Assembly (NCBI RefSeq): GCF_014337925.2
Contig: NZ_CP143423.1
Span: forward strand, 3,254,501-3,318,500
Length of the DNA stretch: 64,000 nt
Reading direction: 5' to 3'
Source of the DNA: Roseobacter fucihabitans
Lineage (GTDB): Bacteria; Pseudomonadota; Alphaproteobacteria; Rhodobacterales; Rhodobacteraceae
Position numbers and translations under genes: made by a program. Each line of letters starts with the position of its first letter. The stretch's first letter is position 1. Positions 15,438 through 52,570 of the stretch are shown piece after piece. The notes below the pieces were generated by a model, which searched no databases, was not told where the DNA came from, and saw nothing but the letters and a program-made list of their open reading frames with translations.

Positions 15438-16376
15438 TCCGCTTCATAGAAGATCACCGCGATGATCATGGGGTCGAGCCGATTTGCAGGGTTCTGCCGA
15501 TTGCCCCAGCGACGTTTTATGACAACCTCGCCAAGCAGGTTGATGCTTCGCGGCTTTCGGATCGTGCCAAGCGTGATGAGCAACTCAAGCCCGAGATCGA
15601 ACGGGTCTCTGAGCAAAATCTCAAAGTCTACGGCGTGCGGAAGATCTGGCATCAGATGCGCAGAGAAGGCTTTGAGATTGCACGTTGCACAGTCGCCCGC
15701 CTGATGAAGGACATCGGTATCGAAGGCGTCGTTCGTGGCAAGAAGCCCAAAACGACTTTGCAGGATAAGGCGTTACCTTGTCCGTTGGACCGGGTGAACC
15801 GCCAATTCCACGCACCTGCACCCAACGTACTGTGGGTCAGCGACTTTACGTATGTCGCGACATGGCAAGGGTTCGTCTATGTGGCATTCGTCATTGATGT
15901 TTTTCCGCGGCGCATCGTTGGCTGGCGCGCAAGCCGCACAGCCAATGCAGGCTTCGTTCTCCCCTCTCGGGATATTGCTGCGCAATACCCTGCCGGGCAA
16001 TGGATTCTTTGGAACAGGCCATTCATCAACGCAGGCCAGCGCAGGATCAAGTGGTGCATCACTCGGACCGTGGGTCGCATACCCATCAATCAAGTACACC
16101 GAACGACTGGCAAAGGCGAAGGTCGCCCCGTCTGTCGGCAGTGTTGGGGATTCCTATGATAATGCTTTGGCCGAAACGATCAACGGTTTGTTCAAAACTG
16201 AAGTCATCCACAGGCGTGGCCCATGGCGCAGCTCTGAGGCCGTTGAGTACGCCACCCTGGAATGGGTCGATTGGTTCAACAATCGCCGCCTGCTGGAGCC
16301 TATCGGGAATATCCCACCAGCTGAAGCAGAGGCAAACTTCTATGCCGCTATGGAAAGATCAGACATGGCAGCGTAA
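15434..16376 (+). pseudogene. IS3-family transposase OrfB, disrupted by a 41-bp insert and a 1-nt deletion
   Basis: Native sequence MIRFIEDHRDDHGVEPICRV runs to TANAGFVL at 15960. Removing exactly 41 nt (15961-16001) restores GFVL-DSLEQAIHQRRPAQ. A second lesion follows: in the motif HHSDRGSQY-SIKYTERLA the codon expected as CAG reads CA, so the frame slips by one again near 16077. The C-terminal part continues DNALAETINGLFKTEV to 16376. Catalytic residues are all traceable (DFTYVA, HHSDRGS, AETING). It is inactive unless both lesions are bypassed. Confidence 0.85.
15961..16001 (+). repeat. 41-bp palindromic insert, copy A (in IS3 orfB)
   Basis: Begins CCCCTCTCGGGATATTGC and ends CCCTGCCGGGCAAT, followed by GGAT. 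Central hairpin TATTGC-TGC-GCAATA. Same orientation as the host gene. Its length is fixed by the reading frame of the interrupted transposase. Confidence 0.9.
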
Positions 16377-16415
16377 CTAAGATAAATCAGCCTCCGGTAA
16401 ACAGGGGGCGGTTCA

Positions 16416-16603
16416 CAATTACTGGCATCGCAAAGCACGACTTCACCGCCCACAGCAAGGGCGAGTATGGCCGTGGCGTCGTCCATACCAACACGATTGA
16501 GGGTTATTTCAGTATCTTCAAGCGCGGTATGAAGGGCGTCTATCAGCACTGCGATAAGAAACATCTGCACCGCTATGCGGCAGAGTTTGAGTTCCGTTAC
16601 AAT
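16416..16603 (+). pseudogene. IS1595-family transposase, C-terminal part
   Basis: Resumes as TGIAKHDFTAHSKGEYGRG, then HTNTIEGYFSIFKRGMKG and HLHRYAAEFEFRYN, the standard end of the ISXO2-like DDE domain (third catalytic Glu in TIEGY). It is cut at about 16602 by an IS110 fragment. It belongs with 14435-15018. Confidence 0.85.
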
Positions 16604-16859
16604 ATCTTAAAAGTCCTGCGCCGCAACTGCCGGTGCATTCCACCCCAATGCGCTGCAGGTTCCCGAATGACCGCATCCACGCCAGCATCAACTTGTAACC
16701 CTGCCGCGTCGTCGCAAAGTTCTGCGTGCCCAGCACTTGATCATTATCATCGACAACTGCCGCAACATGAAGATCTTTATGCGTATCAACCCCGCCAACG
16801 ACTGGGATGGTTTGCTTAGTTTTGCCCATGGGATCATCCTTTGCGGCGGCTTTCGACAT
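16602..16859 (-). pseudogene. IS110-family transposase, N-terminal fragment
   Basis: From MSKAAAKDDPMGKTKQTIPV the frame reads VVGGVDTHKDLHVAAVVDDN through IGVECTGSCGAGLLRY, then becomes nonsense. This is the RuvC-like (DEDD) first part of an IS110 recombinase with Asp in GVDTHK and Glu in VECTG. About three quarters of the protein is missing. The 260 bp upstream (16860-17119) hold no gene and may be this element's non-coding end. Confidence 0.8.
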
Positions 16860-17214
16860 ACTTCACCAGAAAGAATGCACGGACAGGACAGTCATGAGAC
16901 CAAGTGGTCAGGCCCTTCTTTGGTCACGCGATATCTTCGAGACGAAGCCTCACCGCAAAGCGTTCCCGGATGATCGACAGGTCCAGGGAAAGACACAAGT
17001 CAGGTCGATCGGAGTGAGGGTCAGATCACACCAAGAGGCCAAGCGGTACCAACCCAACGAATGGTCGATCGGTGTTAGAGTCAAACCACCCGAGAACTGG
17101 TGTCCATTCTATGACTGTCGGAATGGATCATGACCTTTTGCTTTGGCTTGCGTCGCCAAACCGCGGCCAAGAGCGCTTGTAGGGCGAGATCGGTTGTCAT
17201 ACGCGATTGCATCC

Positions 17215-17255
17215 ATTGCCCGGCAGGCGATTGCAAAGCAATCTGCCGAGAGGGG
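17215..17255 (-). repeat. 41-bp palindromic insert, copy B (in IS3 orfB)
   Basis: On the plus strand it starts ATTGCCCGGCAGGCG and ends GCCGAGAGGGG. In element orientation the stem is GATTGC-TTT-GCAATC with an outer CGGCA/TGCCG pairing, followed by GGAT. Same orientation as the host gene. Confidence 0.9.
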
Positions 17256-17717
17256 ACCATCCGACTACACGTCGTGAGAACAAGTCAATGACAACGCACA
17301 GGTACGACCAACCCTCATGTGTTCTGATATCGGTGATATCGGTGACCCAAACTCGGTTGGGTGCATCGACTTCAAATTGCCGATCCAACGTGTTGTCAGC
17401 AACGACCGCAGGTTTGCCGCCATAACGACCAGGTCACCGTTTGTAGCCGATTTGCGCCGTGATGCCCGCGAGACTGGCCAACCGCGCAACATGGTTCTCA
17501 GAACAGATCTCACCTTGATCAAGTAGATCATCCTGCAGCTTGCGGTATCCATATACTTTGCCGCTATCCGTCCATGCTTGTTGGATCAGATCGGTTTGCC
17601 GTGCATCTTCAAGCGCACGTTGGCTTAACGGTTCCTTAAGCCATGCATAGAACCCACTGAAATGCACAGCCAGCACGCGACACATCGACCGTACAGAAAA
17701 CTCTGCACGATGGGCCT

Positions 17718-17758
17718 CCCCTCTCGGGATATTGCTGCACAATACCCTGCCGGGCAGT
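17718..17758 (+). repeat. 41-bp palindromic insert, copy C (in IS3 orfB)
   Basis: Reads CCCCTCTCGGGATATTGC to CCCTGCCGGGCAGT and is followed by GAAT. The stem is TATTGC-TGC-ACAATA with one mismatch. It lies opposite to the host gene's direction, unlike the other full copies. Removing 41 nt restores YAFIQAHRAEF. Confidence 0.9.
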
Positions 17759-17773
17759 GAATAAACGCGTATT

Positions 17774-17900
17774 TCACTGAGACTCGCGCGCGAAGTACGC
17801 GGTCGCCTTTTTTAAGATTGTCCGCTCCTCGGTCACCCGGGCCAGCTCGCGCTTTAGACCCTCTCGCGACATTGCCGCGCAACCTCCGATCTGACACGTG
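17774..17900 (-). pseudogene. IS3-family OrfA, C-terminal fragment
   Basis: Reads [20 protein letters not shown] then YFARESQ and a stop overlapping the orfB start. This is the coiled-coil end of an IS3-group OrfA. Upstream it joins a half copy of the 41-bp element and then IS66 sequence, so the N-terminal helix-turn-helix is lost. Confidence 0.75.
17858..17882 (+). repeat. Half copy (H) of the 41-bp palindromic element
   Basis: 25 bp, ACCCTCTCGCGACATTGC then CGCGCAA, matching the first 25 positions of copy A at about 21 of 25. The second half does not match. It sits at the junction of IS66-like and IS3-like sequence, as if a recombination broke the element in its loop. Confidence 0.55.
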
Positions 17901-18132
17901 GCCACTTCGCAAACTGCGCCTTCCAGGTTTAGCAGGACCAGCTTGCCTTCCCGCGCCATGCGACGCCATTCGGATACATGATTGGGCCCCCCTATCTACG
18001 CGCAACCCCGTTCATAGTCGTACCATCAACCAATGTCTCAGCCATTATCCGCACCCTCACCTCATCCGGCCAATGTCTCTGGCCCTCAGGTCTGCGCCGC
18101 GCCTCAACGAGAAATTCCTTCATAGCCTCCAT
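17900..18132 (-). pseudogene. IS66-type OrfA fragment
   Basis: From the ATG at 18132: [46 protein letters not shown], then small indels shift the frame to [20 protein letters not shown] and EGA. This is the helix-turn-helix OrfA layout (xxVNxVARRYG-NHLSEWRR) of IS66 elements. The remaining IS66 genes are absent. Confidence 0.65.
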
Positions 18133-18229
18133 GGACAACGGACTCGCAGAATAAACGCCGCATCGGAAGATGGAGTCTAAACAGCGGTTACCACCCTACG
18201 CGCATCTCGACGGACCTGTGGCATGCCGT

Positions 18230-18252
18230 AAGGTGGGCTTTAGGCCACCTTT
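18230..18252 (-). terminator. Weak hairpin after the FAD oxidase gene
   Basis: AAGGTGG and CCACCTT, a 7-bp stem with an 8-nt loop, about 16 nt past the stop. There is no strong U run in the minus direction, so its role as a terminator is uncertain. Confidence 0.35.
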
Positions 18253-18267
18253 GCACCGCTTGCATCT

Positions 18268-19665
18268 TCAGAGGATTTTGCCGGGGTTCATGATGTTTTT
18301 CGGGTCAAGCGCGGATTTAATCGCCGACATCACACCAGTCGCGCCACCCAACTCTTCTTGCAAGTACTTGCGCTTGCCCTGACCGATGCCATGTTCGCCC
18401 GTGCAGGTGCCATCCATGGCAATGGCAACGCTGTTCAGCCAGCTCACGAAACCAGATGCCTTGTCCAGCTCGTCACCATCTTCCATATCAACCAGCAGTG
18501 AGACATGGAAATTGCCGTCTCCTGCGTGCCCAACGATAGGCGCGACCAAGCCCAAGGCATGCGCCTTTTCCTGAGAGGCCACCACACATTCCGCCAGCCG
18601 CGAAATTGGCACACACACATCCGTGGCAATTGCCTTCGCACCCGGGCGATAGTGCAGCATCGCCCAATAGGCGTCATGGCGCGCCTGCCAGAGCCTGTTA
18701 CGTTCTTCGGTCGTTGTCGTGACGACGTAGCCTTGTCCGCCGTGATCTTCGGCCAATGCACCAAAAATCTCTGCCTGCTCCACAACCCCTGCTTCTGTCC
18801 CGTGAAATTCCAATAACAACAGCGGCGTTTCGGGTAAATCCAGCTTGGAATAGGCATTGACCGCCGAAACCGTCGTGGCGTCCAGCAACTCGATCCGCGC
18901 GACCGGCAGCCCGTATTGGATCACTGCCATCACCGTCTGGCAGGCCGCGTCTACCGTGGGAAAGGAACAGCTTGCCGAACTGATCGCCTCTGGAATGCCT
19001 TGCAGCTTCAGCGTGATCTCGGTGATGATCCCGAGTGTCCCCTCCGAGCCCACAAGCAACCGCGTCAAATCATACCCCGCCGAAGACTTGCGCGCGCGCG
19101 TTCCGGTGCGGATGATGCGACCGTCCGCCATGACCACCTCAACCGCCAGCACGTTGTCTTTCATCGTGCCATAACGCACCGCATTGGTCCCGGAAGCCCG
19201 CGTCGCCGCCATCCCGCCCAATGATGCATCCGCCCCCGGATCAATCGGGAAAAACAGCCCCTGATCGCGCAGATGCGTATTCAGCGCCTTGCGCGTGACA
19301 CCCGGCTGCACCCGGCAATCCAGATCGCCCGCATTGACCTCGACGACCCTATCCATCTGGCTGAGGTCAACGCAAATCCCACCCGCAGGCGCGTTGACAT
19401 GGCCCTCCAGCGAGGTTCCCGTGCCATAGGCAATCACCGGCACCTCATGTGCAGCGCAGACCTGAACCACATCGGAAACCTCCTGCGCGCTGGCCACAAA
19501 AACCACGCCGTCAGGGGGTTGGTTTTCGATCCAGGTGGTGGTGTGGCCGTGCTGCTCGCGGATCGATTGACCAGTCTGGAACCGTTCCCCGAACTGCTGT
19601 TTCAGCACCCCAAGCGCGGTCTCAATACCCGTTTCGTTACGCGGCAAACTCGCGTGTTGCACCAT
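18268..19665 (-). CDS. FAD-linked oxidase, D-lactate/glycolate dehydrogenase family
   Basis: 465 residues from the ATG at 19665 (MVQHASLPRNETG), preceded by GGGGAGAG; the longer open frame is not native. An FAD_binding_4 domain covers about residues 50-190 (VIAYGTGTSLEGHVNAPAGG is the FAD-binding Gly motif) and an FAD-oxidase C-terminal domain follows (HAGDGNFHVSLLVD near 380, GEHGIGQGKRKYL near 420, end DPKNIMNPGKIL). It should oxidise a D-2-hydroxyacid to the 2-oxoacid, passing electrons to a cytochrome or the quinone pool. Length fits D-lactate dehydrogenase (cytochrome) rather than a GlcDEF subunit. ggt follows 28 nt upstream of it, so the two are probably cotranscribed. A weak hairpin AAGGTGG/CCACCTT lies past its stop. 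Confidence 0.92.
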   Translation of the reverse strand: MVQHASLPRNETGIETALGVLKQQFGERFQTGQSIREQHGHTTTWIENQPPDGVVFVASAQEVSDVVQVCAAHEVPVIAYGTGTSLEGHVNAPAGGICVDLSQMDRVVEVNAGDLDCRVQPGVTRKALNTHLRDQGLFFPIDPGADASLGGMAATRASGTNAVRYGTMKDNVLAVEVVMADGRIIRTGTRARKSSAGYDLTRLLVGSEGTLGIITEITLKLQGIPEAISSASCSFPTVDAACQTVMAVIQYGLPVARIELLDATTVSAVNAYSKLDLPETPLLLLEFHGTEAGVVEQAEIFGALAEDHGGQGYVVTTTTEERNRLWQARHDAYWAMLHYRPGAKAIATDVCVPISRLAECVVASQEKAHALGLVAPIVGHAGDGNFHVSLLVDMEDGDELDKASGFVSWLNSVAIAMDGTCTGEHGIGQGKRKYLQEELGGATGVMSAIKSALDPKNIMNPGKIL

Positions 19666-19693
19666 CTGCTCTCTCCCCTGACGCGGTCCCGGC

Positions 19694-21472
19694 CTATTGG
19701 CCAAGCGCGATGCCTTCGCGGCGCGGATCAGCCCCGCCCTTGAGCGTTTCGCCGATGGATATCGCATGCAATCCGGAGGTCAAGGCGCGGCTTTCCACCT
19801 CAAAACCCAGACCCGTCAAAGCCTCGGTAAGGCCTTCGGAGGAGGTCCCTTCTTCCACGTCATATTTGCCAAATCGGTTGACCGCATGCGGCACAGCAAC
19901 GGCCTGCTGCACGTCCATGCCCCAATCCAGATGCGCGATAATGCCTTGGGCGACATAGCCAATGATGCGGCTGCCACCCGGGCTGCCGATAGCCAAAACG
20001 GGGGCACCGTCCTTCATCACGATCGTGGGTGCCATAGAGGAACGTGGACGCTTGCCCGGTTCCACCCGATTGGCGATGGGGACCCCGTCCACATGGCTGC
20101 GGAAGGAGAAATCGGTAAGCTCATTGTTGAGCAAAAAGCCCCGCACCATCAGGCGACTGCCGAAGCCATTTTCGATGGTTGTGGTCATGGAGGCCACGTT
20201 GCCCTGCTCGTCCACGATCACGAAATGCGAGGTGGAGGGCAGTTCAATGGATTGATCATCCGCCCAGTTCAGCGCATGATCGAAAGCCGGTGTGCCAGGG
20301 GCCACCTCTGGCAATGCGCCCTCCCCGGCCAAAAGGGCCGCACGCTCGGCCAGATAGGCGGGGTCCAGCAAGCCTTGGGTTGGGACCGGCACGAAATCGC
20401 TGTCCGCCATGTAGCGTCCGCGATCCGCGAAGGCCAAACGTGAGGCATCCCCGATCAACCGGCGCACCTCGACATCCATCGGACCCGCGCTGAGGTCATA
20501 CCCCTCCAGCATGCCGAGGATTTGCCCCACCGTCAGCGCGCCCGAAGAGGGCGGCCCCATCCCGCAGACATCATGCGCGCGGTAACTCACACAGACCGGC
20601 GCGCGTTCCTTCACCGCATAAATGCTCAGATCGAGCGGAGACAGCACACCGGGATTGCCCTCCACACCCTGCACGGTTGTCACAATATCAGCGGCAATCT
20701 CTCCGGTGTAAAAGGCCCGCGATCCGCCCTCTGCCATGGCGCGCAGCGTCTCACCATAAGCGGTGTTGACCAGCAAATCCCCAGCGACCAGAGGTGTACC
20801 GCCAGGAATGAAGTAATCCGCTGTGCTGGCAAAGCGCCCCAGCCGTTCTGCGTCCCCTTCGATCAGGCCCGCAAGGCGCGGGGACACCTCAAAACCTGCC
20901 TCGGCAAGCTCGATTGCGGGGGCCAGCAGTTCCCACCACTCCAATTTACCCCACCGCTCATGCGCATCCTCCATCAACGCAGGCGTGCCGGGTGTGCCAA
21001 CGGATAGCCCACCAACAACGGCATCAAAAAACCCCAAGGGTTCACCGTCTGCGTCCTGAAACAGGCGCGGTGTTGCGGCCAATGGCGCGGTTTCGCGCCC
21101 ATCCAGCGTGGTCAACGCACCGCTTGCCGCATCATAATAGACCAGAAACGCACCCCCCCCGAGCCCGGAGGATTGCGGCTCCACCAGCCCCAGCATGGCC
21201 TGCACCGCCACCAGCGCATCCGCGGCCGATCCGCCTTTGGCCAATACATCCGCTCCGGCCTTCACCGCCCAGGGATTAGCCGCTGCCACCATCCAGTTTC
21301 GCGCCTCAACCGGGGTGCCTGCGAATTTCGCCTCCAGTGCTGTGGCCACCTGAGGCGAGATCGCCTGAAACGCGCCCTGCGTGGCCGCTTCGGGCTGCAC
21401 CGCATCTGCGGCCTGTTGGGCGGTGGCCGTCGTTGCCGCCAAAAGGGCCAGTCCTGTCAAGAAAAGTCGCAT
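19694..21472 (-). CDS. ggt: Gamma-glutamyltranspeptidase precursor
   Basis: 592 residues from the ATG at 21472, chosen for its signal peptide (MRLFLTGLALLAATTATAQQ). The Ntn-hydrolase layout is complete: the large subunit with SSGLGGGAFLVYYDAASGAL near residue 100, and the autoprocessing site with nucleophile Thr in LPSTSHFVIVDEQGNVAS near residue 400. The substrate-binding segment GKRPRSSMAPTIV and the double glycine of AIGSPGGSRII follow. It is exported to the periplasm, cleaves itself, and transfers or hydrolyses the gamma-glutamyl group of glutathione. It lies between the hydroxyacid dehydrogenase and FAD oxidase genes on the same strand. Confidence 0.95.
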   Translation of the reverse strand: MRLFLTGLALLAATTATAQQAADAVQPEAATQGAFQAISPQVATALEAKFAGTPVEARNWMVAAANPWAVKAGADVLAKGGSAADALVAVQAMLGLVEPQSSGLGGGAFLVYYDAASGALTTLDGRETAPLAATPRLFQDADGEPLGFFDAVVGGLSVGTPGTPALMEDAHERWGKLEWWELLAPAIELAEAGFEVSPRLAGLIEGDAERLGRFASTADYFIPGGTPLVAGDLLVNTAYGETLRAMAEGGSRAFYTGEIAADIVTTVQGVEGNPGVLSPLDLSIYAVKERAPVCVSYRAHDVCGMGPPSSGALTVGQILGMLEGYDLSAGPMDVEVRRLIGDASRLAFADRGRYMADSDFVPVPTQGLLDPAYLAERAALLAGEGALPEVAPGTPAFDHALNWADDQSIELPSTSHFVIVDEQGNVASMTTTIENGFGSRLMVRGFLLNNELTDFSFRSHVDGVPIANRVEPGKRPRSSMAPTIVMKDGAPVLAIGSPGGSRIIGYVAQGIIAHLDWGMDVQQAVAVPHAVNRFGKYDVEEGTSSEGLTEALTGLGFEVESRALTSGLHAISIGETLKGGADPRREGIALGQ

Positions 21473-21500
21473 GATCTCTCCAATCTGAAAGGGGGGGGGG

Positions 21501-22487
21501 TTAAAGCATGGATGGGACAACCTGATCGGGCGGGCGATGCCCGTCATCGAAGGTTTTGATATTAATGATGACTTTCTCGCCCATCTCGATCCGACCTTCG
21601 CGCGTGGCCGAACCCATATGCGGCAGCAGCACAACGTTTTCCAACTCGCGCAGGCGCGGGTTCACGCGGGTGCCACGCTCATAGACGTCCAGACCCGCAC
21701 CGGCGATTTCGCCAGAGCGCAACATCCGCGTGAGCGCGTTTTCGTCGATCACCTCACCGCGCGACGTGTTCACGACCACCGCCTCGGGCTTCATCAGTTT
21801 CAGACGGCGCGCGTTCATCAGATGGAAGGTCGAGGGCGTTGCCGGGCAATTGATCGATACCACATCCATCCGTGCCACCATCTGGTCCAGGCTCTCCCAA
21901 TAGGTCGCTTCAAGCTGTTCTTCGACTTCCGGGCGCAACCGGCGCCGATTGTGATAATGCACCTGCATGCCAAAGGCCGACGCGCGACGTGCCACCGCCT
22001 GGCCGATGCGCCCCATGCCGAGAATCCCGAGCCGCCGCCCGCCGATGCGCCCGCCCAGAAATGCCGTGGGTGCCCAACCTTCCCATGCACCCGACTGCAT
22101 CGCGCTCAAACCCTCCGGAATGCGCCGCAGCACCGCCAGCAAAAGCGCCAGCGTCATATCGGCGGTATCATCGGTCAGAACACCGGGCGTGTTGGAGACC
22201 AGAATACCGCGCTGGCGGGCGGTGGCGATATCGATGTGATCCACACCCGCGCCGTAATTTGCGATCAGTTTCAAACGATCCCCCGCCTGAGCGATCAGGG
22301 TGGAATCAATTTCATCCGTCACCGTGGGCACCAGAACATCCGCCGATTTCATCGCAGTGACCAGATGCGCCCGGCTCATCGGCGTGTCATCATCGCGCAG
22401 TTTTACATCGAACAGTTCAGACAGCCGTGTCTCGACGGCTTCGGGTAACCGTCGCGTTACGACAACACTGAGCTTTGGCTTTGGCAT
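21501..22487 (-). CDS. D-2-hydroxyacid dehydrogenase, glyoxylate/hydroxypyruvate reductase-like
   Basis: 328 residues from the ATG at 22487 (MPKPKLSVVVTRRLPEAVET) with GGGGAGACGG just upstream. The Rossmann motif is LGILGMGRIGQAVARR near residue 150. The catalytic Arg is in VVNTSRGEVIDE, Glu in GLDVYERG, and the His in LLPHMGSATREGR. It reduces glyoxylate or hydroxypyruvate with NAD(P)H in the cytoplasm. It heads a same-strand run with ggt and the FAD oxidase, which also acts on 2-hydroxyacids, so a shared 2-hydroxyacid role is plausible. Confidence 0.92.
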   Translation of the reverse strand: MPKPKLSVVVTRRLPEAVETRLSELFDVKLRDDDTPMSRAHLVTAMKSADVLVPTVTDEIDSTLIAQAGDRLKLIANYGAGVDHIDIATARQRGILVSNTPGVLTDDTADMTLALLLAVLRRIPEGLSAMQSGAWEGWAPTAFLGGRIGGRRLGILGMGRIGQAVARRASAFGMQVHYHNRRRLRPEVEEQLEATYWESLDQMVARMDVVSINCPATPSTFHLMNARRLKLMKPEAVVVNTSRGEVIDENALTRMLRSGEIAGAGLDVYERGTRVNPRLRELENVVLLPHMGSATREGRIEMGEKVIINIKTFDDGHRPPDQVVPSML

Positions 22488-22605
22488 TTTCCGTCTCCCC
22501 GGACTTGGCGCGCGTATTGGTTTCATGACATGGTGACCCACAAGGCGACGCGGCACAAGAACCTCGCGCCCTCAATTGAGCAAAACACGCATAGCAGGCA
22601 GTGAC

Positions 22606-23109: not shown

Positions 23110-23130
23110 GACGGGTGTCTGTGCAGCCCG

Positions 23131-24042
<912 letters not shown>

Positions 24043-24138
24043 AAGTCCTCGCACCCGATCCTCAAATACCTTGTGGTATTCAAATGGAATACCCCTAGGC
24101 TAGACATGATCGGAACAAAACACAAAGAGAGATCAAAA

Positions 24139-31780: not shown

Positions 31781-31781
31781 A

Positions 31782-39349: not shown

Positions 39350-40182
39350 TTATGTGTTGGTCAATGTTGGCTTTTCCTTTCGTTTTTTCTTTGCAGCCTC
39401 TGAGCTGGCTTTGAAGCGGTAGCTGTCGTTTCCAGTTTCCAGGATGTGGCAGCGGTGTGTGAGGCGATCCAGAAGCGCGGTTGTCATCTTTGCATCTCCA
39501 AAGACCTGTGCCCATTCTGAGAAGCTGAGGTTGGTGGTTATGATGACGCTGGTTCGCTCGTAGAGTTTGCTCAGCAGATGGAACAGCAGTGCGCCGCCGG
39601 ATGGACTGAACGGCAAGTAGCCAAGTTCGTCTCTTACCCGGCAGGCGCATGCAAAGCATGCTGCCGGGAGGGCAAAATCACGAGATCAATTTTGGTCATC
39701 ATCTCTGCCATCTTTCCGGTCTTGCCGAGCGCCTTTTCCTGTTCTAGCGCGTTGACCAGTTCGACGGTTGAGTAGAAGCGCACTTTGCGCCGGTAATGTT
39801 CAATGGCCTGAACGCCGATGGCCGTTGCGACATGACTCTTGCCCGTCCCGGGGCCGCCGATGAGCACGACGTTCTCAGCATTCTCCATAAACTCGCACCG
39901 GTGTAACTGCCGGACAGTGGCCTCATTGATGTCGCTGGATTTGAAGTCAAAGCCAGCGAGGTCCTTGTATGACGGGAAGCGGGCCACCTTTGTTTGATAT
40001 GCGATTGAGCGCACTTCCCGTTCAGCGATCTCTGCCTTGAGTAGTTGGGACAACATCGGTGTTGCGGCGTCAAAAGCTGGCCCACCTTGGGCGACCAGAT
40101 CTTCTACCGCGTTTGCCATGCCATAAAGTTTGAGGCTGCGCAGCATGATCACGATTGAGGCTCCTGCTGGGTCATGACGCAT
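39350..40182 (-). pseudogene. istB: IS21 helper ATPase IstB, interrupted by a 41-bp insert
   Basis: From the ATG at 40182 (MRHDPAGASIVIMLRSLKLY) the frame reads NVVLIGGPGTGKSHVATAIG (Walker A), then MTKIDLVIL where insert D interrupts Walker B. Past the insert it resumes [60 protein letters not shown]. Removing exactly 41 nt leaves 792 nt, 264 codons with the stop, a normal IstB. No other lesion is visible. It overlaps the istA stop by 11 nt. Confidence 0.9.
39633..39673 (-). repeat. 41-bp palindromic insert, copy D (in istB)
   Basis: In element orientation it starts GCCCTCCCGGCAGCATGC and ends CCTGCCGGGTAAG, followed by AGAC; a one-base shift of the edges is equally possible. It has the strongest hairpin of the set: CCCGGCA pairs TGCCGGG, and inside GCATGC-TTT-GCATGC. 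The inner stem differs from the others on both sides in matching pairs. Same orientation as istB. Confidence 0.88.
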
Positions 40183-40262
40183 GGCGTTTTCCCCCAGACT
40201 GTCTCAGATCATCATAGCGGTCCACGTTTGCCTTTGGCGCTGTTTCCAATGCCAAGGCATCC

Positions 40263-40303
40263 ATTGCCCGACAGGCGATTGCGAAGCAATCTGCCGAGAG
40301 GGG
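40263..40303 (-). repeat. 41-bp palindromic insert, copy E (in istA)
   Basis: Plus strand ATTGCCCGACAGGCGATT to GCCGAGAGGGG. Inner stem in element orientation GATTGC-TTC-GCAATC. Followed by GGAT in element orientation. Same direction as istA. Its removal joins VDPP to DALALETAP. Confidence 0.9.
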
Positions 40304-40469
40304 GGCGGATCGACTTCTGGGAGATCAGTGTGTGTTCCGTCTATCAACCGGTGCAACAGGTTCAGAATGTGGGTCTTGGTGGGCACGCCAGCCTCCAAGG
40401 CCAATTCTACGGCACACAGAACGGCATTCTCATCATGGTGCAAAACCAATGATAGGATATCGACCATCC

Positions 40470-40510
40470 ACTGCCTGTCAGGGTATTGCGTAGCAATGTC
40501 CCGAGAGGGT
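40470..40510 (-). repeat. 41-bp palindromic insert, copy F (in istA)
   Basis: Plus strand ACTGCCTGTCAGGGTATT to GTCCCGAGAGGGT. Inner stem ATTGC-TAC-GCAAT in element orientation, followed by GGAT. Same direction as istA. Its removal joins REGGDR to GMVDILSLV. Confidence 0.9.
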
Positions 40511-43158: not shown

Positions 43159-43271
43159 TGGGTGGCTCCTATCCTAGCAGTTGATGATAACTGCACTTTG
43201 GCACATTCGATGCCGGTGGAGCAGGAGCCACCCACCTCATCCGGTTAGGGCCGTTACGGCATAAATTCGGG

Positions 43272-44549: not shown

Positions 44550-44610
44550 CGGTAGTCCTTTGTTAGCCCTGATGTTTTATCAACGGGCGCTTGTCTCAGA
44601 CAGCACAACA

Positions 44611-45843: not shown

Positions 45844-45861
45844 ATTCAGCCCCTCAGAAAA

Positions 45862-46317
45862 TCAGCGGAAACCTCTGATTTCCAGCTCCGTCTCGCCAGA
45901 TGACAACCAGAAAGTGAGCTCGTCAATGATATCACCGGCGTCCCGCCGTAATTTTCCTTTCAGGGCACATTCCCAGATCACCGCAACCCGCCTGTCGCAG
46001 GATTTCAGCGCCGCGCGGTTTTTCCGGTCCCGTTCAATATTCCCACCGATCTTTTCCCGCCAGAACTCTTCGCGCGTCTTTGGCCATCTGAACAACGCGC
46101 AGTCGTGTCCGTGCCAGAAGCATCCGTTGACCAGTATCACCGCGCCGTATTTTGGCAGAACAAGATCGGGCCGGCCCGGCAGTTTCCGGTCATGCAGCCG
46201 GAACCGGAAACCACGCGCGTGAAGCCCGCGGCGGATGATCATCTCCGGTTTGGTATCAGCACCTCTGATCGCCGCCATATTGCGGCTGCGGGTTGCCTGG
46301 TCATGAACGTCAGCCAA
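45862..46317 (-). CDS. vsr: Very short patch repair endonuclease Vsr
   Basis: 151 residues. MADVHDQATRSRNMAAIRGA opens, then GRPDLVLPKYGAVILVNGCF and WHGHDCALFRWPKT carry the catalytic Asp and His residues and zinc-site residues of Vsr. It nicks T:G mismatches that arise from deamination of 5-methylcytosine in Dcm sites. It overlaps the methylase gene by 8 nt, as usual for dcm-vsr pairs. Confidence 0.95.
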   Translation of the reverse strand: MADVHDQATRSRNMAAIRGADTKPEMIIRRGLHARGFRFRLHDRKLPGRPDLVLPKYGAVILVNGCFWHGHDCALFRWPKTREEFWREKIGGNIERDRKNRAALKSCDRRVAVIWECALKGKLRRDAGDIIDELTFWLSSGETELEIRGFR

Positions 46318-47542
46318 CCTTGCTGAGGCTCTTTTGATTTTCGCTTTCGATCACCGACAGGATATGGGGCAGCATGACGCGCGCAACTTCGGCAAAGACC
46401 GGGACGGCAACGGAATTGCCAAACTGTTTGTATGCCTGGGTATCCGATACCGGGATCCGGAAATCCTCTCCGTAGCCCATCAGCCGGGCACATTCGCGCG
46501 GCGTCAGGCGTCGGGGGTTGTTACCTGCGCCGCGGCAGACAAGGATCTCAGAGCCGTCCTTGTAGTACCGCGCCGACAATGTGCGTGAAATGCTGTCGCC
46601 ATCCACAAGTCCAAAGCCAAATCCATTTCCGGCGGCTTTGTGTTTTGCAGCATAGCCCTGAAGATAGGCCCAGAGCTTGTCGGAGAGGGTGTACTTATCG
46701 CTGACGGCAGCGTCGTTGCCGAGTGTGAAATGCCCCTCAGGGCTCTCAATGCCGTTTTCGGGATGCAGGATATCCCGCATCCGGCGCTCCCGATGGGCGG
46801 GGAGCAGAACATCGTCAAAACTGAACGGCACCTCTTCGCGGAAGCCCACAATGACAATTCGCTCCCGATGCTGAGGCACAAAATGCGCGGCATCAATGAC
46901 GCGGGGTTCCGGCACATAGTAACCAAGCTCATCGCGCAGCTTACGCATGATGACCTGGAACGTACGACCTTTGTCATGGCTGCGCAGGTTCTTCACATTC
47001 TCGAGCATGAAGGCGGCGGGACGGTGATGCTTGAGGATCCGCAACACGTCAAAAAACAGTGTGCCCTGAGTTTCATCATCGAAGCCGTGAGCGCGGCCAA
47101 GGGCGTTCTTTTTTGACACGCCTGCAATTGAGAACGGCTGGCAGGGAAAACCTGCGACCAGCACGTCATGTTCGGGGATCTCTTCGGCTTCGATTTCGGT
47201 TATGTCCCCGGCAATCGGCCGGTTGTCCGGGAAGTTGGCGTCATAGGTCTGCTGGGCAAAGCGATCCCACTCCGAGGTAAACACACAACGCCCGCCTGCG
47301 CTCTCCATAGCTTTGCGCAGCCCGCCAATCCCCGCGAACAGATCAACAAAGGAAAATGCCGCACCGGCGCTATCTGGCTGGCGTGCACCGACTTCCATAC
47401 GAAGAAGGGTCATTACGCCTTCGCGCGGGGTTTCCTCACCACGTTTCCAGCGGTAAATGTGTCCCTCAGAATAGCCGATAATCTTTGCGGCTTCGGCGAC
47501 TGAGTGCCCGGTTTTCTGTAATAGAAGTTCGAATTCGGTCAT
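46310..47542 (-). CDS. dcm: DNA (cytosine-5)-methyltransferase, Dcm/EcoRII type
   Basis: 410 residues from the ATG at 47542 (MTEFELLLQKTGHSVAEAAK); the frame runs further up but the fold begins here. An N-terminal helix-turn-helix (AAKIIGYSEGHIYRWKRGEE) precedes the C5-methylase motifs: I FSFVDLFAGIGGLRKAME, IV AGFPCQPFSIAG with the catalytic Cys, VI FMLENVKNL, VIII QHRERIVIVGF, and X KQFGNSVAVPVFAEVA. It protects DNA from the EcoRII-type enzyme. The attached helix-turn-helix could let it regulate the operon. Confidence 0.95.
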   Translation of the reverse strand: MTEFELLLQKTGHSVAEAAKIIGYSEGHIYRWKRGEETPREGVMTLLRMEVGARQPDSAGAAFSFVDLFAGIGGLRKAMESAGGRCVFTSEWDRFAQQTYDANFPDNRPIAGDITEIEAEEIPEHDVLVAGFPCQPFSIAGVSKKNALGRAHGFDDETQGTLFFDVLRILKHHRPAAFMLENVKNLRSHDKGRTFQVIMRKLRDELGYYVPEPRVIDAAHFVPQHRERIVIVGFREEVPFSFDDVLLPAHRERRMRDILHPENGIESPEGHFTLGNDAAVSDKYTLSDKLWAYLQGYAAKHKAAGNGFGFGLVDGDSISRTLSARYYKDGSEILVCRGAGNNPRRLTPRECARLMGYGEDFRIPVSDTQAYKQFGNSVAVPVFAEVARVMLPHILSVIESENQKSLSKVG

Positions 47543-47719
47543 TCTGCGCGCCCTCCGGTACCGCGATTCAGTTTCTTGGGGAATTTTTTTGTCACTATGG
47601 CGATGCGATTCCCGCGAAGCAAGAACATTCAGCAAACATTTGGATGAATTTCGCGTTAATGAGCCCCGGAACCGAGATCCGACTGGACTTCATTTTCAAA
47701 CGAAGCGTCAGTCGGAGCC

Positions 47720-47935
47720 ATGGAAAACGACCCGAAAGATACAGTTCAGCGCCTGTTTGCGGAAGTGACGGCCCAGCTTGAAGACGCAGCGCTGGCGGCG
47801 CTGGAAGGGCAGTCGCCCTGGATAGACGCGGAAAAGGTCCGCGCGGCCGCGGCAGCGGTGCGCGGTCACCTCGCAGAGATTGACCGGAAACTGGATGCGG
47901 CAGAGATGATCGCGGCAAGGTATCTGCGTAAGTAG
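47720..47935 (+). CDS. Small helical protein, unknown
   Basis: 71 residues, MENDPKDTVQRLFAEVTAQL onward, Ala-rich and helical (KVRAAAAAVRGHLAEIDRKL). A CGGAG lies 4 nt before the ATG. It is convergent with the terminase gene, 18 nt between the stops. Probably part of the phage-like module, but nothing more can be said. Confidence 0.5.
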   Translation: MENDPKDTVQRLFAEVTAQLEDAALAALEGQSPWIDAEKVRAAAAAVRGHLAEIDRKLDAAEMIAARYLRK

Positions 47936-47953
47936 CAGGCAAAACCGGCATCA

Positions 47954-49384
47954 TTATTCCAGCCGGATCAGTTCCGGCGGAATCATCCCGATGCGACCTC
48001 GGGAAATCGACCGCCATGCCAGAAGCTGCGTCAGAGCATCCACCTGATCGTCGTGGCGCAGGTTGGGAAAGCCGAGCAGTTCGCGTTCGAAACCGGCAAG
48101 CCACGGCGCGTCTTCGGGCATTAGCAGATCACCCGCTTCAATGCGGTGCGTCTGAGCTGAAAACCGGGTTTCCTTGTCGCCATCTGGTTTTCGCGCAATC
48201 GGTGTCGGCACTCCGCGGGGAGCTTCATGACGCAGAACCTGGATCAACTGCGCGCCGCTCGCGGCATCCTCAATCAGCAGCGTGTCTGTCTGCCATGAAC
48301 GTGCCAGATCAATGGCGCGGCGTCGCAGATCGGGGAACTGCAGTCTGCCGCGAAAGACATCAAGCACAAACACCTCGTTCTTCCGGACGAGCGCTGTGAT
48401 ACAGACCGAGAAATCATTGAACACGCCGTCTTTGCTGGCGGTATCCCAGCTCTGAACGATCAGATCGCCCGGCTGGCGTTCCGGCGTTTCACTGTAGCGC
48501 CTGAACCACTCCCGCTTCACATGCAGACCTTCGGCCGGGACCGGCGATTGCTGATACTGGGCCGAAAATGTCGCTGACCCCATCACGGCTTTCAGCGCAT
48601 TCAGGCGGTCCACATCTTCACGCTCCGGATGCAGTGCTTCACCCGCGCGCCGTTCGTGCACCCGCCCCCCACCGAGCAGCACCTGTTCGCTGGTTTCCGC
48701 AATCGCCTGCAGGCTGAGATGATCCCAGCCACCGGCCTCCAGCAAATGCCCGGCCAGATCCTCCTCATGCAGGCGCTGCATCACCAGCAGGATCGCACCC
48801 TTTGACTTGTCATTCAGGCGCGATGACAGCGTGTTGGCGTACCAATGGATGACCCTGCGCCGTGCAGCTTCGGACATGGCCTCATCGGGTTTGATCGGAT
48901 CATCGATGATGATGATGTCGCCCCCGCGCCCGGTCAGCGTGCCGCCCACTGAAGTAGACAGCCGGCCACCGCCCTTTGTGGTCGCAAAGTCCATTTCGGC
49001 CCCACCGCCGCGTTTCAGGCGGGTGTTGGGGAATACGCGCTGATACCAGTCTGTCTGCATGATCGCGCGGCAATCACCTGCGTGTTTCTGGGCCAGTTCG
49101 GCCGAATAGCTGACGCAGACGAATTTCAGCCCGGGATCGCGGCCCAGCCGCCACGCAACCCAGGCAACCGAAATCGAAATGGATTTCAGGTAACGTGGCG
49201 GCATGGTGACAATCAGACGTGTTGACGAGCCGCGCTCGACCCGGCCCAGCTGATGCCCGATTGCGTCGTGGTGCCAGTTGGGGGCGAAGTGATCACCCCC
49301 CGAGGCTGTCGTGAACGCTTTTGAAAGAAACGAAAGGAAATCTTTCCGAACCACAACGTCGAAGTATGCCTGACGGTCAGTCAT
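47954..49384 (-). CDS. Phage-type terminase large subunit
   Basis: 476 residues. The ATPase half has IVTMPPRYLKSISISVAWVA near residue 60 (a Walker-A variant usual in this family) and GRGGDIIIIDDPIKPDEAMS near residue 150 (Walker B). The nuclease half has LIVQSWDTASKDGVFNDFSV, DTLLIEDAASGAQLIQ and LRHDDQVDALTQLLAW. It would package DNA into a procapsid. No portal, capsid or tail gene is nearby. It overlaps the DUF5681 gene by 8 nt. Confidence 0.93.
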   Translation of the reverse strand: MTDRQAYFDVVVRKDFLSFLSKAFTTASGGDHFAPNWHHDAIGHQLGRVERGSSTRLIVTMPPRYLKSISISVAWVAWRLGRDPGLKFVCVSYSAELAQKHAGDCRAIMQTDWYQRVFPNTRLKRGGGAEMDFATTKGGGRLSTSVGGTLTGRGGDIIIIDDPIKPDEAMSEAARRRVIHWYANTLSSRLNDKSKGAILLVMQRLHEEDLAGHLLEAGGWDHLSLQAIAETSEQVLLGGGRVHERRAGEALHPEREDVDRLNALKAVMGSATFSAQYQQSPVPAEGLHVKREWFRRYSETPERQPGDLIVQSWDTASKDGVFNDFSVCITALVRKNEVFVLDVFRGRLQFPDLRRRAIDLARSWQTDTLLIEDAASGAQLIQVLRHEAPRGVPTPIARKPDGDKETRFSAQTHRIEAGDLLMPEDAPWLAGFERELLGFPNLRHDDQVDALTQLLAWRSISRGRIGMIPPELIRLE

Positions 49385-49772
49385 CCCGCGGCTCCCTGCC
49401 CTGCCGTTCTATGAATTGCTGCAGAATGGCATCATCATCCTCCGAAAGACGCGATGTATCTGCCGCCACCTCATCGTCCGGCCCCAGCAGAGAGATCACC
49501 AGTTCAGTAATTTTGCTGATGGCGCGAATATCGGCTTTCACGGCTTTGGCCGTCAGTTGTTTGACCACCAGCTGCTGTTTGGTCAGCGTGCGGGTCCGGC
49601 CATTCTCGGTGATCGTGACCCTCTCACCGAGCTCTGCTTTCAGATCGGTCTTCAGGCCGCGCGCGCCTTTTGGCCGGCCGCGCGGATTGCCCGACTTCCC
49701 TTTCTGAAACTGCCCGCTTTTCGGCGGCTTTCTGTAGCCAACATCGTAGCTGTCTTTATCCGGTCCGCTCAT
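49377..49772 (-). CDS. DUF5681 protein, likely terminase partner
   Basis: 131 residues. The start YDVGYRKPPKSGQFQKGKSG followed by NPRGRPKGARG is the basic DUF5681 motif, then a helical part (TLTKQQLVVKQLTAKAVKAD). These proteins are usually encoded next to phage terminases and may be small subunits (inferred). 4-nt overlap with the methylase gene before it and 8-nt overlap with terminase after it. Confidence 0.85.
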   Translation of the reverse strand: MSGPDKDSYDVGYRKPPKSGQFQKGKSGNPRGRPKGARGLKTDLKAELGERVTITENGRTRTLTKQQLVVKQLTAKAVKADIRAISKITELVISLLGPDDEVAADTSRLSEDDDAILQQFIERQGREPRDD

Positions 49773-51097
49773 AACTCTTCCCCGCGTTCTGCGCTGACCG
49801 CCGCAAAACTCTCAAAGCTCTCCGCATGGACTGCCGTTTCGTCGGTTGTGTCCTGCAGGCGGCGAACGATCAAGTCGGCGTAATGCGGGTCGATTTCCAT
49901 ACCGACCCCGATCCGGCCGGTACTTGCGGCAGCCAGCAGGGTGGTTCCCGATCCGGCGAAGGCATCGGCAATGATCCCACCGCGCTGCGAGCAATCCATA
50001 ATCGCATCCGCAACCATATCGATGGGTTTGACCGTCGGGTGCGCCTTCAGATCATCCATGCGGCCGGCGCGGAAGGTATTGGCACCGGCATAGGTCCAGA
50101 GGTTGGACCGGTGCCGGCCTTTATCGCCGAGACCGAAATTATTGATATGGGCTGCGGTACCGTGTTTGAACGCAAAAACCAGCTCATGCTGTGACCGGTA
50201 AAAGCTGCCCATACCTGCATTTGTCTTGGCCCAGACGCACAGGTTTTTCAGCTCGCCATAGATGCCATCCGCCGCTTCCAGAACTTCCCGCATGTGCCGC
50301 CAGTCCATACAGACGAAGTGGATCGCCCCATTCGCACTGAACGCGGCCAGGTTTCTGAAGGATCCGCGCAGAAACCCGGTGAACGCATCCTGCGACATTT
50401 CGCCGGACGCCATGGCGAACTCGCGGTGCTTAACCGCGCCCAGCCCGGACACATGACCTGCGATCGGAACATTGTAGGGCGGGTCGATAAAGATCATCTG
50501 CGCTTTGTCCTGATCCATGAGCATCCGCCAGTCGTCAGGGTTCAGCGCATCGCCACAGAGCAATCGGTGCTTCCCGATGAGCCAGAGATCACCGGGGCGG
50601 CTGACCGGCGGTTGATCGGTTTCCGGCAGGGGCACGGGTTCAGGCTCTGCTGCCGTTTCCGGCGCCAGCAGCACATCGATCTCGCCGGTTTCAAACCCGG
50701 TGAGCTCAATATCGAAATCAATACTGAGGTCCAGCAGCCCTTGCAGTTCGATCGCCAGCAGATCAGTATCCCAGCCGGCATTCTCCGCGAGCTTATTGTC
50801 AGCAATGACGTAGGCCCGCTTCTGAGCCTCGCTCATATGATCAAGCTGCAGGACCGGGACCTCTGACATACCGAGCAGCTTTGCCGCTGCGATGCGGCCA
50901 TGGCCCGCGATGACACCACCATCTGCGTCGACCAGAACCGGATTGGTCCAGCCGAACTCCCGGATACTGTCGGCGATCTGCCGGATCTGCTTTTTCGAGT
51001 GCGTCCGTGGATTGTTGGCGTAGGGCCTCAGATCGTCCACAGGCCTCATCGTGATATTGTCCCGATCGGGCAGCGTGAATGTCTCTTGTCTGGTCAT
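49769..51097 (-). CDS. ParB-like domain fused to a DNA N4/N6 methyltransferase
   Basis: 442 residues. N-terminal ParB/Srx domain (RPYANNPRTHSKKQIRQIAD, VDADGGVIAGHGRIAAAKLL, residues about 20-100). The methylase half follows: MIFIDPPYNVPIAG near residue 220 (DPPY, motif IV) precedes ADAFAGSGTTLLAAASTGRI near 395 (motif I), so it is a beta-class amino-methylase. It opens the three-gene run with DUF5681 and terminase. Such fusions are common in alphaproteobacterial prophages. Its site is unknown. Confidence 0.92.
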   Translation of the reverse strand: MTRQETFTLPDRDNITMRPVDDLRPYANNPRTHSKKQIRQIADSIREFGWTNPVLVDADGGVIAGHGRIAAAKLLGMSEVPVLQLDHMSEAQKRAYVIADNKLAENAGWDTDLLAIELQGLLDLSIDFDIELTGFETGEIDVLLAPETAAEPEPVPLPETDQPPVSRPGDLWLIGKHRLLCGDALNPDDWRMLMDQDKAQMIFIDPPYNVPIAGHVSGLGAVKHREFAMASGEMSQDAFTGFLRGSFRNLAAFSANGAIHFVCMDWRHMREVLEAADGIYGELKNLCVWAKTNAGMGSFYRSQHELVFAFKHGTAAHINNFGLGDKGRHRSNLWTYAGANTFRAGRMDDLKAHPTVKPIDMVADAIMDCSQRGGIIADAFAGSGTTLLAAASTGRIGVGMEIDPHYADLIVRRLQDTTDETAVHAESFESFAAVSAERGEEL

Positions 51098-51267
51098 GAC
51101 GTTTCCTTTGCTGATGTGCGCTTGCGCGCCGTTCAGAACTGCCCGGGCGGCTCCCGAGGCAGCTCATAGCATTGGAATCTCATACAGCCGACCCAAAGTA
51201 ACCTGGCATTACGCCGGGCGGGCCGATGAATTAACTATCTGGTAATAAATGACTTCTGTTCAGGAAG

Positions 51268-51483
51268 TCAGCTCTCAGAGTCGTCGAGCAGCCTTGCGGC
51301 GGGCACATTCAGAGCTTCCGCAATTCGCTCCAGCACCACCACCGTTGGGTTGCGCACACCGCGCTCGACGCCGCTGACATATGTCCGGTGCAAACCACAT
51401 TCGAGCGCAAGCCCTTCCTGCGAGAAGCCTGCTTCCTTGCGGTATTTCTTCAGATTGCGGCCAACCCGCTGACGAACATCCAT
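51268..51483 (-). CDS. Small XRE-family repressor
   Basis: 71 residues consisting of one helix-turn-helix: VGRNLKKYRKEAGFSQEGLA, ECGLHRTYVSGVERGVRNPT, VLERIAEALNVPAARLLDD. It resembles C proteins that control restriction-modification genes and small phage repressors. Divergent from the nuclease-like gene at 51596 and upstream of the methylase run, so it may regulate either. Confidence 0.88.
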   Translation of the reverse strand: MDVRQRVGRNLKKYRKEAGFSQEGLALECGLHRTYVSGVERGVRNPTVVVLERIAEALNVPAARLLDDSES

Positions 51484-51595
51484 TCAAAGTATGGGTCATG
51501 GATGTTGCCTTGTAATCTACAGACTATGAGTCTCATTTTGCTTGACTGGCAGGGCGCGAGAAGCGGTACTGCACGCGGGAGGTAAGGAGAACAGC

Positions 51596-52093
51596 ATGCT
51601 TGATGACATCCACAACGCGGCCTCCAGCCTGCGGGAGCAATATCTGGAATACGCACTTCTCGGCGCTTTGTGTCAGGAAATGTGGAAGCGCGGCGTGGAA
51701 ATGGACATTCTGCGCAGCCACACAGATCGCAGCGGGTATGACATTCTGCTGGAGGCAGACGGCATTCAGCGCCATGTCCAGCTGAAATCAAGCTTTGTCG
51801 GAGCCAGGACCAGCAGGCAGAAAATCAACGTTAAACTGGCCGAAAAACCGTCCGGTTGTGTGATCTGGGTCTGGTTCGATCCCGCATCTCTCGAGCTGCT
51901 CAATTATCTATGGTTTGGAGCGAAGCCCGGCCAGCCTGTGCCCGATCTGGGCAGCCGGATCGGCAGGCACTCGAAAGGCAATGCCAAAGGCTACAAGGCC
52001 GAGAGGTCGGATATCCGCATTCTGAATAAGGGACAGTTTGACGCGATCGGCTCGGCCAGCCGCCTGGCCGATCAGCTGTTCGGAGCGATCTGA
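51596..52093 (+). CDS. PD-(D/E)XK nuclease-like protein
   Basis: 165 residues from the ATG at 51596, with AGGAG 8 nt upstream. The core HTDRSGYDILLEADGIQRHV then QLKSSFVG has the spacing Asp-(n)-Q-x-K of PD-(D/E)XK nucleases. WVWFDPASLELLNYLWFG follows. A homologue truncated at its 5' end begins near 63673 at the window edge. It pairs divergently with the XRE gene. Its role, perhaps restriction, is inferred from fold and company only. Confidence 0.65.
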   Translation: MLDDIHNAASSLREQYLEYALLGALCQEMWKRGVEMDILRSHTDRSGYDILLEADGIQRHVQLKSSFVGARTSRQKINVKLAEKPSGCVIWVWFDPASLELLNYLWFGAKPGQPVPDLGSRIGRHSKGNAKGYKAERSDIRILNKGQFDAIGSASRLADQLFGAI

Positions 52094-52320
52094 CCATAAC
52101 ACACGCTGATCTAGACCATCGCCGGCATCGACGACGGTATGTCCGGCTTTGTCGCCGCTGCAGCTCACGCTGACAGCAGCCACAAACCTTAGACATGGAC
52201 GAAACCGCGGTATTGGTGTTTGTTGCGGTTGCTGCGTGTTAATTTGAGCCGTGAATTTGGTAGATAGGCGCGCCTGTCTGAAGACTGAGACCTTCTCAAT
52301 CTGACCAATAGGAGGTTTCA

Positions 52321-52570
52321 ATGTCAGACCAATATGTACCTGCGCTGCGCCAGCGGTTTCTCCCCTTTCGGGACATTGCTGCGCAATACCTTGCCGGGCA
52401 GTGGAAGACATGCAAATCAAAGGGCTGCAGCCCAAGACGCAGACGATGTATCTGCGCGGGATGCGAGATTTTACACGGTTTCTGGGGCGTTCTCCAGATA
52501 CTGCGACGCCGGAGGATTTACGGGCGTTTCAGCTGGATATGAAGGAACGGGGCGTTGGGGGGTACGCCAA
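52321..52570 (+). pseudogene. Tyrosine recombinase, N-terminal fragment with a 41-bp insert
   Basis: From the ATG at 52321 (AGGAGG 7 nt upstream): MSDQYVPALRQRFL, then insert G, then EDMQIKGLQPKTQTMYLRGM, RDFTRFLGRSPDTATPEDLR and AFQLDMKERGVG. This is the SAM-like N-terminal domain of a transposon-type integrase. It breaks off at about 52560 where a LysR gene ends. No catalytic domain. Confidence 0.8.
52362..52402 (+). repeat. 41-bp palindromic insert, copy G (in a recombinase gene)
   Basis: Starts CCCCTTTCGGGACATTGC and ends CCTTGCCGGGCAGT, followed by GGAA. Inner stem ATTGC-TGC-GCAAT. Same direction as the host gene. Its removal joins RQRFL to EDMQIKGL. Confidence 0.9.

Follow-up and report, generated by a model that had tools for sequence, protein, structure and literature searches.

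Short hairpin inserts of Rhodobacteraceae: a putative non-autonomous mobile element with a strong bias to mobile-element genes

Seven palindromic inserts of 41 nt lie in a 64-kb stretch of DNA from Roseobacter fucihabitans (the window, which belongs to the 4.85-Mb genome G000). They had been located in a preliminary description of the sequence, and all seven were found again in their places and in the hosts named there, i.e., three in IS3 orfB, two in istA, one in istB, and one in a tyrosine recombinase gene. We consider it somewhat probable that the inserts represent a non-autonomous hairpin element of marine Rhodobacteraceae, one that has moved recently and has a strong bias to mobile-element genes. 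The earlier suggestion of a short mobile element is supported by clean empty alleles, by insertion at many sites in many genera, by covariation within the hairpin, and by identical inserts in diverged hosts. The small element would consist of the fixed ends CCCTCTC and TGCCGGGCARTG, which enclose a variable hairpin with maintained pairing. The family is apparently undescribed; no description was found in the literature, where six stretches of the element had no match in full texts, subscription papers being largely outside reach. We know of no small palindromic element that resides mostly in mobile-element genes across mechanistically unrelated families.

The insert family and its junctions

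In the family pattern, 16-27 nt separate two fixed ends, CCCTCTC and TGCCGGGCARYG. In the genome of R. fucihabitans, the consensus yielded 47 matches with up to three mismatches, and the general pattern with exact ends yielded 89 copies, versus none for the reversed pattern in both cases. A chance origin of these matches is excluded by the reversed-pattern controls. The stretches collected from the host chromosome contained 143 copies in 63 site classes; 27 of these were multi-copy and 36 single-copy, some of the latter being chimeric or diverged forms of other classes. The general pattern matched in 115 of 394 genomes of the family (reversed pattern, 0), a few of which had no hairpin at the match and probably represent chance, and the narrower consensus was found in 66 of the 394. 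A class-wide draw of 385 genomes contained five matching genomes. Four belong to the family, which was represented by five genomes in the draw, and the fifth (G586, one of the 380 genomes outside the family) had three matches with good hairpins. Single matches in this draw carry little weight, because the reversed control also matched in two genomes. A scan of named genomes gave at least 120 stretches, and the 80 matches listed were mostly from Rhodobacterales, a few being assigned just to Alphaproteobacteria and one to Enemella, possibly a contamination. Plasmid records also carried good matches, including some from Shinella and Ensifer among the matches listed; no gene was annotated at 53 of 60 and at 58 of 60 of the plasmid insert spots among the matches listed, in a gene table that excludes pseudogenes. 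Phage carriage of the element was rejected, because 50,697 phage records contained only two weak partial matches and no good match.

Length and flanks were analyzed for 331 distinct sites, which include 25 sites with three end mismatches, some of them false. The preliminary length of exactly 41 bp applied to 228 of the 331 sites, and the others ranged from 34 to 47 nt with unchanged ends. One exact hairpin sequence was common to 29 distinct sites.

For the structural analysis 40 diverse subtypes were chosen, of which 16 of a long type and 14 of a short type were aligned and ten were left out; the tested structures were defined after the sequences had been inspected. In both types the outer block is CCC/GGG, and there are an internal loop and a variable hairpin; the long type contains one unpaired A, which is invariant. 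In the long type, 95.6% of the cells were paired and 24 cells were changed on both sides, compared with a shuffled mean of 6.7. The respective values for the short type were 92.1% and 25 cells, with a shuffled mean of 8.3. The covariation scores of the two types were 0.441 and 0.542 versus shuffled means of 0.099 and 0.127, and were reached by none of 500 shuffles, while controls with slid structures gave scores of at most 0.103. Pairing of the hairpin is maintained by compensatory changes although the sequence varies. Membership in a known RNA family was rejected, because an Rfam search gave no relevant match for the element.

Empty alleles were present among the collected loci for 59 sites (80-96% identity across 56 flank bases). 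The flanks joined exactly at 44 of these sites, one base off in one direction at 8, and one base off in the other direction at 7, whereby the script accepted only joins from -2 to +3 bases. At these 59 sites clean insertion had occurred at C^GAYG without target duplication. The empty alleles also showed that the host families usually lack the insert, and they corrected the element boundaries: the copies had been recognized properly in the preliminary description, but both boundaries lie one base further on, the element running from CCCTCTC to CARTG and the leading C being a target base. Across the 331 sites, the right flank contained G (75%), A (70%), T or C (85%), and G (63%), and the left flank C (71%). 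The right-flank tetranucleotides, counted at up to 331 sites, included GATG (79), GACG (35), GACA (22), and AATG (18), with GATG or GACG beside the element at 114.

Comparison with intact homologous proteins enabled measurement of the net insertion at 82 of 306 sites. It was equal to the element length in 49 cases, one base less in 9, and scattered in 24; for the 64 measured elements of 41 nt it was 41 in 40 cases, 40 in 7, and scattered in 17. Net lengths of 37, 38, 40, 41, and 43 were all present. Insertions used both strands and all codon phases. Where both flanks were assigned to one strand near the junction (134 sites, excluding 42 mixed and 58 far sites), 91 inserts were on the gene strand and 43 on the opposite strand, compared with 53% predicted from the motif.

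Host genes and recurrent target codons

The first host set consisted of 306 sites with up to two end mismatches (the 25 sites with three were dropped) and stemmed mostly from the narrow 41-nt consensus. Hosts were tested by blastx, within 500 bp of the insert, to fragments that carry the Pfam or NCBIfam label of a transposase or recombinase; a few sites were backed by their own labelled fragment, some labels were weak, and the NCBIfam matches were mostly under the whole-protein cut-off, as expected with fragments. Support was obtained for 285 of the 306 sites (both flanks 200, same label 132). Seven of the remaining 21 had a model match of their own (L142, L146, L180 twice, L210, L074, and, weakly, L163), bringing the sites with blastx or model support to 292. 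Another ten were judged to be transposases by eye (L036, L041, L043, L067, L109, L131, L145, L147, L166, and L224), and the others were a contig end (L107), a false match (L125), a stretch that resembles spacer DNA and is found again in plasmids (L113), and a relE-like gene (L108). The host families were IS3, IS5, IS21, IS30, IS66, IS91, IS110, IS200 (Y1), IS256, IS481, IS630, IS1182, IS1380, IS6, and tyrosine recombinases. For the R. fucihabitans genome itself, 68 of 71 sites had blastx support and the other three were transposases by eye.

A less selected sample of 60 places in 48 genomes of the family, mostly with other subtypes, yielded 65 sites. Support was found on both flanks for 27, on one flank for 23, and on neither for 15. 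By eye, eight of the 15 were transposases (L302, L306, L319, three in L323, L330, and L338), one was an RHS-like gene (L291), one a contig end (L324), and five were spacers. Given a spacer share of 5 of the 64 assignable sites, the tendency toward mobile genes holds; it is strong but not exclusive. Among the 25 loci of the class-wide draw, 20 sites had blastx support, and inspection by eye assigned two transposases (L259 and L264, both in G586), a ParB-like host (L270), an RHS-like host (L278), and a chance match (L263). The preliminary statement that the inserts occur only in transposase and recombinase genes is therefore reduced to a strong tendency, seen in both samples (292 of 306; 50 of 65, plus the eight assigned by eye), with 6 of 65 sites in spacers or the RHS-like gene. 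The absence from ordinary genes and gaps applies to the window, but spacers as well as RHS-like, ParB-like, and RelE-like hosts were found in other genomes. We had ourselves initially taken the inserts to be almost confined to mobile genes; the less selected samples weakened this view, and we accordingly consider the preferred reading and a brake on transposition less probable than before, and random insertion more so.

Three further observations concern unusual hosts. In Sulfitobacter, two or three inserts sit together in a stretch of about 400 bp amid ordinary genes (L113, L143, and L168), and similar DNA occurs in plasmids. The relE-like host (L108, position 1346) adjoins a helix-turn-helix gene and apparent phage genes. 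In R. fucihabitans, the element interrupts an IS200-type Y1 transposase gene in each of three copies (L228, L229, and L230; G000 C1 436639, 3626497, and 3701079); HUH transposase genes also serve as hosts.

In IS5, eleven sites were found at one place, LLI/DSTG (the slash marks the insertion point), all with GGG...CCC hairpins. Three of these hosts (L155, L192, and L223) are 64-70% identical in a codon alignment via one reference, whereas their inserts have 0 differences in 41 positions; the insertion is therefore younger than the hosts, and the codon has been hit repeatedly and recently. As judged from these alignments, some host genes had already diverged by 30-36% when the element was active. 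A second IS5 site, TA/DGAYD, is represented by ten sites, six of which have a GGC...GCC hairpin (compared with GGG...CCC in 11 of 11 at LLI/DSTG). Hairpin subtype may influence target choice at the IS5 codons (L121, L155, L192, L223, and others), a link that is post hoc and uncorrected. Positions just 5' of the Asp codon of a conserved motif also recur in IS66, IS256, IS1182, and istB, and we take these residues to be catalytic or Walker B. Insertion exclusively at catalytic Asp codons was rejected: such positions are recurrent in these families and in IS5, yet many sites lie elsewhere.

Interrupted insertion sequences (IS) have multiplied. A relative of IS3 with five inserts was found at seven places, five of which share about 1.28 kb with 2-10 differences. 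In the alignment the usual 3' part of its orfB is seemingly absent, and 19 open relatives (81% identity of a protein stretch) have no inserts in the matched stretch; therefore, it has probably moved in trans. Multiplication was rejected as proof that interrupted IS still work, because this best case seems to lack the 3' part of orfB. One recombinant tract has transferred an insert between copies, and a relative of the five-insert host with a shared insert has an extra indel; further lesions are present in some of the interrupted hosts. Chimeric sites (G000 C1 3777926, 2104113, and related ones) have one insert between the left flank of one class and the right flank of a second class, which suggests that inserts recombined with each other or that deletion occurred between them. 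We also considered whether a host had been under purifying selection since a shared insertion, but the third-position excess (34 of 48 differences) is uninformative, because the insert-bearing tract looks like a younger recombinant. All six reading frames were open in 110 of 224 distinct elements versus 20% of shuffles; selection for open frames was rejected, as the effect is weak and confounded by relatedness.

Possible origins of the bias and related systems

How might the element move? An enzyme that recognizes the folded hairpin presumably inserts it by single-strand or hairpin recombination, comparable to HUH transposases or hairpin-recognizing recombinases, and this enzyme would come from a source that did not turn up in the analysis. 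The bias would most likely reflect a preference for DNA under mobilization, such as circles and nicked or single-stranded intermediates, combined with counterselection of copies that disrupt useful genes.

Several results weigh against a recently active element with such a bias. No enzyme for it was found among the Y1 matches of the own genome or in 20 element-rich genomes. A longer form that has these ends and carries cargo was rejected, because none was present in 1.15 Mb of loci or in a larger locus set, whole genomes not having been searched. Pairs of filled and empty alleles with more than 96% identity were not seen among the collected loci, so that the insertion event itself has not been caught. 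Some inserts have spread by recombination, and the sites are therefore not all independent. In addition, the five spacer sites of the less selected sample lie between ordinary genes (by eye; L297, L299, L335, L339, and L344), spacers hold 4 of its 7 sites with 45-nt elements, and genome G377 contains five similar 45-nt copies (L297 and L346-L349, four of them collected additionally) with no transposase match. The bias is therefore not absolute and depends on subtype. The flanks of the G377 copies are similar and mutually complementary (GGGGGGCGGCC / GTGTGCTGCCC) and apparently lie in spacers; these copies may be a multiplied spacer hairpin with an insert, or a source population.

Alternatively, insertion could occur at random wherever C^GAYG is present, with selection leaving survivors mainly in useless DNA, of which transposase genes would be the permissive part. 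This explanation is possible but doubtful. The target motif is indeed short, a frameshift by 41 nt would inactivate ordinary genes, some interrupted hosts carry the other lesions described above, and copies in spacers exist. However, spacers would be expected to tolerate insertions about as well as dead transposase genes do, and they hold just 5 of the 65 sampled sites, while all 71 sites of the own genome were assigned to mobile-element genes. The window contains 10.3 kb of IS-like DNA and 6.6 kb of non-IS non-coding DNA, as estimated with a rough gene call and an IS mask built partly from segments of these same sites, and the copies found are all in the IS-like DNA. If both DNA classes were equally permissive, the probability of finding all eight copies there would be about 0.02, for the window only. 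A cellular or mobile system that deposits the 36-45 nt hairpin preferentially in genes of any kind of mobile element, often at conserved catalytic codons, and disarms them as a sequence-independent brake on transposition at the DNA level in Rhodobacteraceae, appears quite improbable to us. The related idea of a system aimed at mobile-element genes, put forward in the preliminary description, gained no support; neither an enzyme nor a guide nor a targeting mechanism came to light.

It is also unlikely that the inserts are a REP-like element (repetitive extragenic palindrome) moved by a Y1/HUH tyrosine transposase of the RAYT type (REP-associated tyrosine transposase), which would insert a single strand next to the 5' flank CRTC of the bottom strand without duplication. 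The missing duplication, the tetranucleotide preference at one end, the invariant unpaired A of the long subtype, and the partial location of the 45-nt subtype in spacers, as for REPs, are in accord with this explanation, and alphaproteobacterial REPs are dominated, according to PMC3733652, by a CGTC-tagged type without known transposase. A Y1/RAYT enzyme was rejected, however, because 15 of the 20 element-rich genomes (picked by eye) had no match to PF01797 (Y1). The ten Y1 matches of the own genome include none that is flanked by elements and three that are interrupted by one, and the copies are mostly not intergenic.

Two further explanations are even less probable. Old, inactive relics might survive mainly inside IS that copy and transfer them. 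We regard this as very unlikely: the multi-copy site classes and the recombinant tract that moved an insert between copies fit it, but the 36 single-copy classes, the hairpin shared by 29 distinct sites, and the identical 41-nt inserts in hosts that are 64-70% alike do not. The chance is slimmer still that translation bypasses the inserts or splicing removes them from the RNA, leaving the interrupted transposases functional. Mitochondrial byps are short mobile hairpins that interrupt coding sequences out of frame, and the element resembles them in this respect. The multiplication of interrupted IS, the excess on the gene strand, and the open frames could be read in the same way. However, the element is present in both orientations and all phases, resides mostly in one host class, and occurs with diverse net lengths; copies in spacers require no bypass, some hosts are otherwise decayed, the 3' part of orfB is apparently absent from the host with five inserts, and its relative with a shared insert has the extra indel. 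The other lesions and the truncated host would argue against functional interrupted genes as in byps.

The preferred reading, a recently active non-autonomous hairpin element, can also be compared with other known systems. The element shares with the REP/RAYT system (GTAG superfamily) the short hairpin repeats in many copies, the conservation of the hairpin by compensatory change, the tetranucleotide preference, the lack of duplication and of any cargo form seen, and, for the 45-nt subtype, a partly intergenic location. Unlike REPs, which are mainly intergenic and tied to a Y1 transposase, its copies reside mostly in mobile-element genes, most element-rich genomes lack PF01797, and no GTAG tag is present at its end, the flank being mostly GAYG (CRTC on the opposite strand). 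Like IS200/IS605 (HUH) elements it is inserted without duplication beside a preferred tetranucleotide, albeit one that is GATG or GACG at just 114 of up to 331 sites, and has an imperfect hairpin with an unpaired base, but no transposase gene is linked to it. Miniature inverted-repeat transposable elements (MITEs) are likewise small non-autonomous mobile DNA; in contrast to them, the element produced no target duplication at the 59 empty-allele sites, and the collected loci contained no larger element with the same ends. CGTC-tagged REPs, most of them intergenic, have stems of 8-9 bp that start with A/T pairs, loops of 4-5 nt, and in most cases a CCA tail (PMC3733652). The emphasis on Alphaproteobacteria and the lack of a known transposase are common to both. 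The other strand of the flank reads CRTC, which may correspond to the CGTC (or TGTC, CCTC) beside the hairpin of these REPs and lies in the target; the ends CCCTCTC and TGCCGGGCARTG of the element with the variable hairpin differ from the stem, loop, and CCA tail of CGTC-tagged REPs. The same source describes Rickettsia palindromic elements (RPE), which also lie within protein-coding genes (PMC3733652). They are read in frame within ordinary genes, whereas the present element usually causes frameshifts (47 of the 64 elements of 41 nt that could be measured gave a net insertion of 41 or 40 nt) and is mostly found in transposase genes.

An active bias would mean that something can tell mobile DNA apart from the rest independently of sequence homology. 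With a passive bias, the element would register sensitively which DNA bacteria treat as expendable. In both cases the element is a precise insertion system and accounts for some of the transposase genes that are broken in genomes of the marine Roseobacter group.

Copies in the window

Table 1. Hairpin inserts and degenerate copies in the 64-kb window of R. fucihabitans.
Position	Strand	Feature	Remark
15367..15405	+	39-nt degenerate in-frame copy, 3' end region of orfA in the IS3 that holds the 15962 copy	
15962..16002	+	41-nt hairpin insert, GGGATATTGC type, in IS3 orfB	gene on same strand
17214..17254	-	41-nt insert, GGCAGATTGC type, in IS3 orfB	host by homology
17719..17759	+	41-nt insert, GGGATATTGC type, in IS3 orfB	gene on other strand; empty allele in L130
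17858..17882	+	degenerate copy, left half only	right half unrecognizable
39632..39672	-	41-nt diverged insert, GGCAGCATGC type, in istB, immediately 5' of DELGY motif	14 mismatches to consensus; folded; host by eye
40262..40302	-	41-nt insert, GGCAGATTGC type, in istA	site class present in 4 chromosome copies
40469..40509	-	41-nt insert, GGGACATTGC type, in istA	Pfam match of flank
52363..52403	+	41-nt insert close to start of tyrosine recombinase gene	empty allele; Pfam match of related site in L180

The preliminary view that every insertion shifts the frame was put forward for the 41-nt copies of the window; the additional 39-nt copy is in frame, and the orfA open reading frame (15072-15437) is still open despite it. 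The right end of this copy is overlapped by an Rfam match to the ALIL pseudoknot, a programmed frameshift signal, in the IS3 (15397-15508). The DELGY motif of the istB host is presumably Walker B. The empty allele of the tyrosine recombinase copy is L184, with the join ...TTTCTC + GAAGAC... In a few copies (L060, 39632 in the window, and 3840755 and 9335 in the own genome) a variant right end, TAATA or similar, replaces CARTG; these variants partly share one istB site and possibly are of common descent with altered hairpins.

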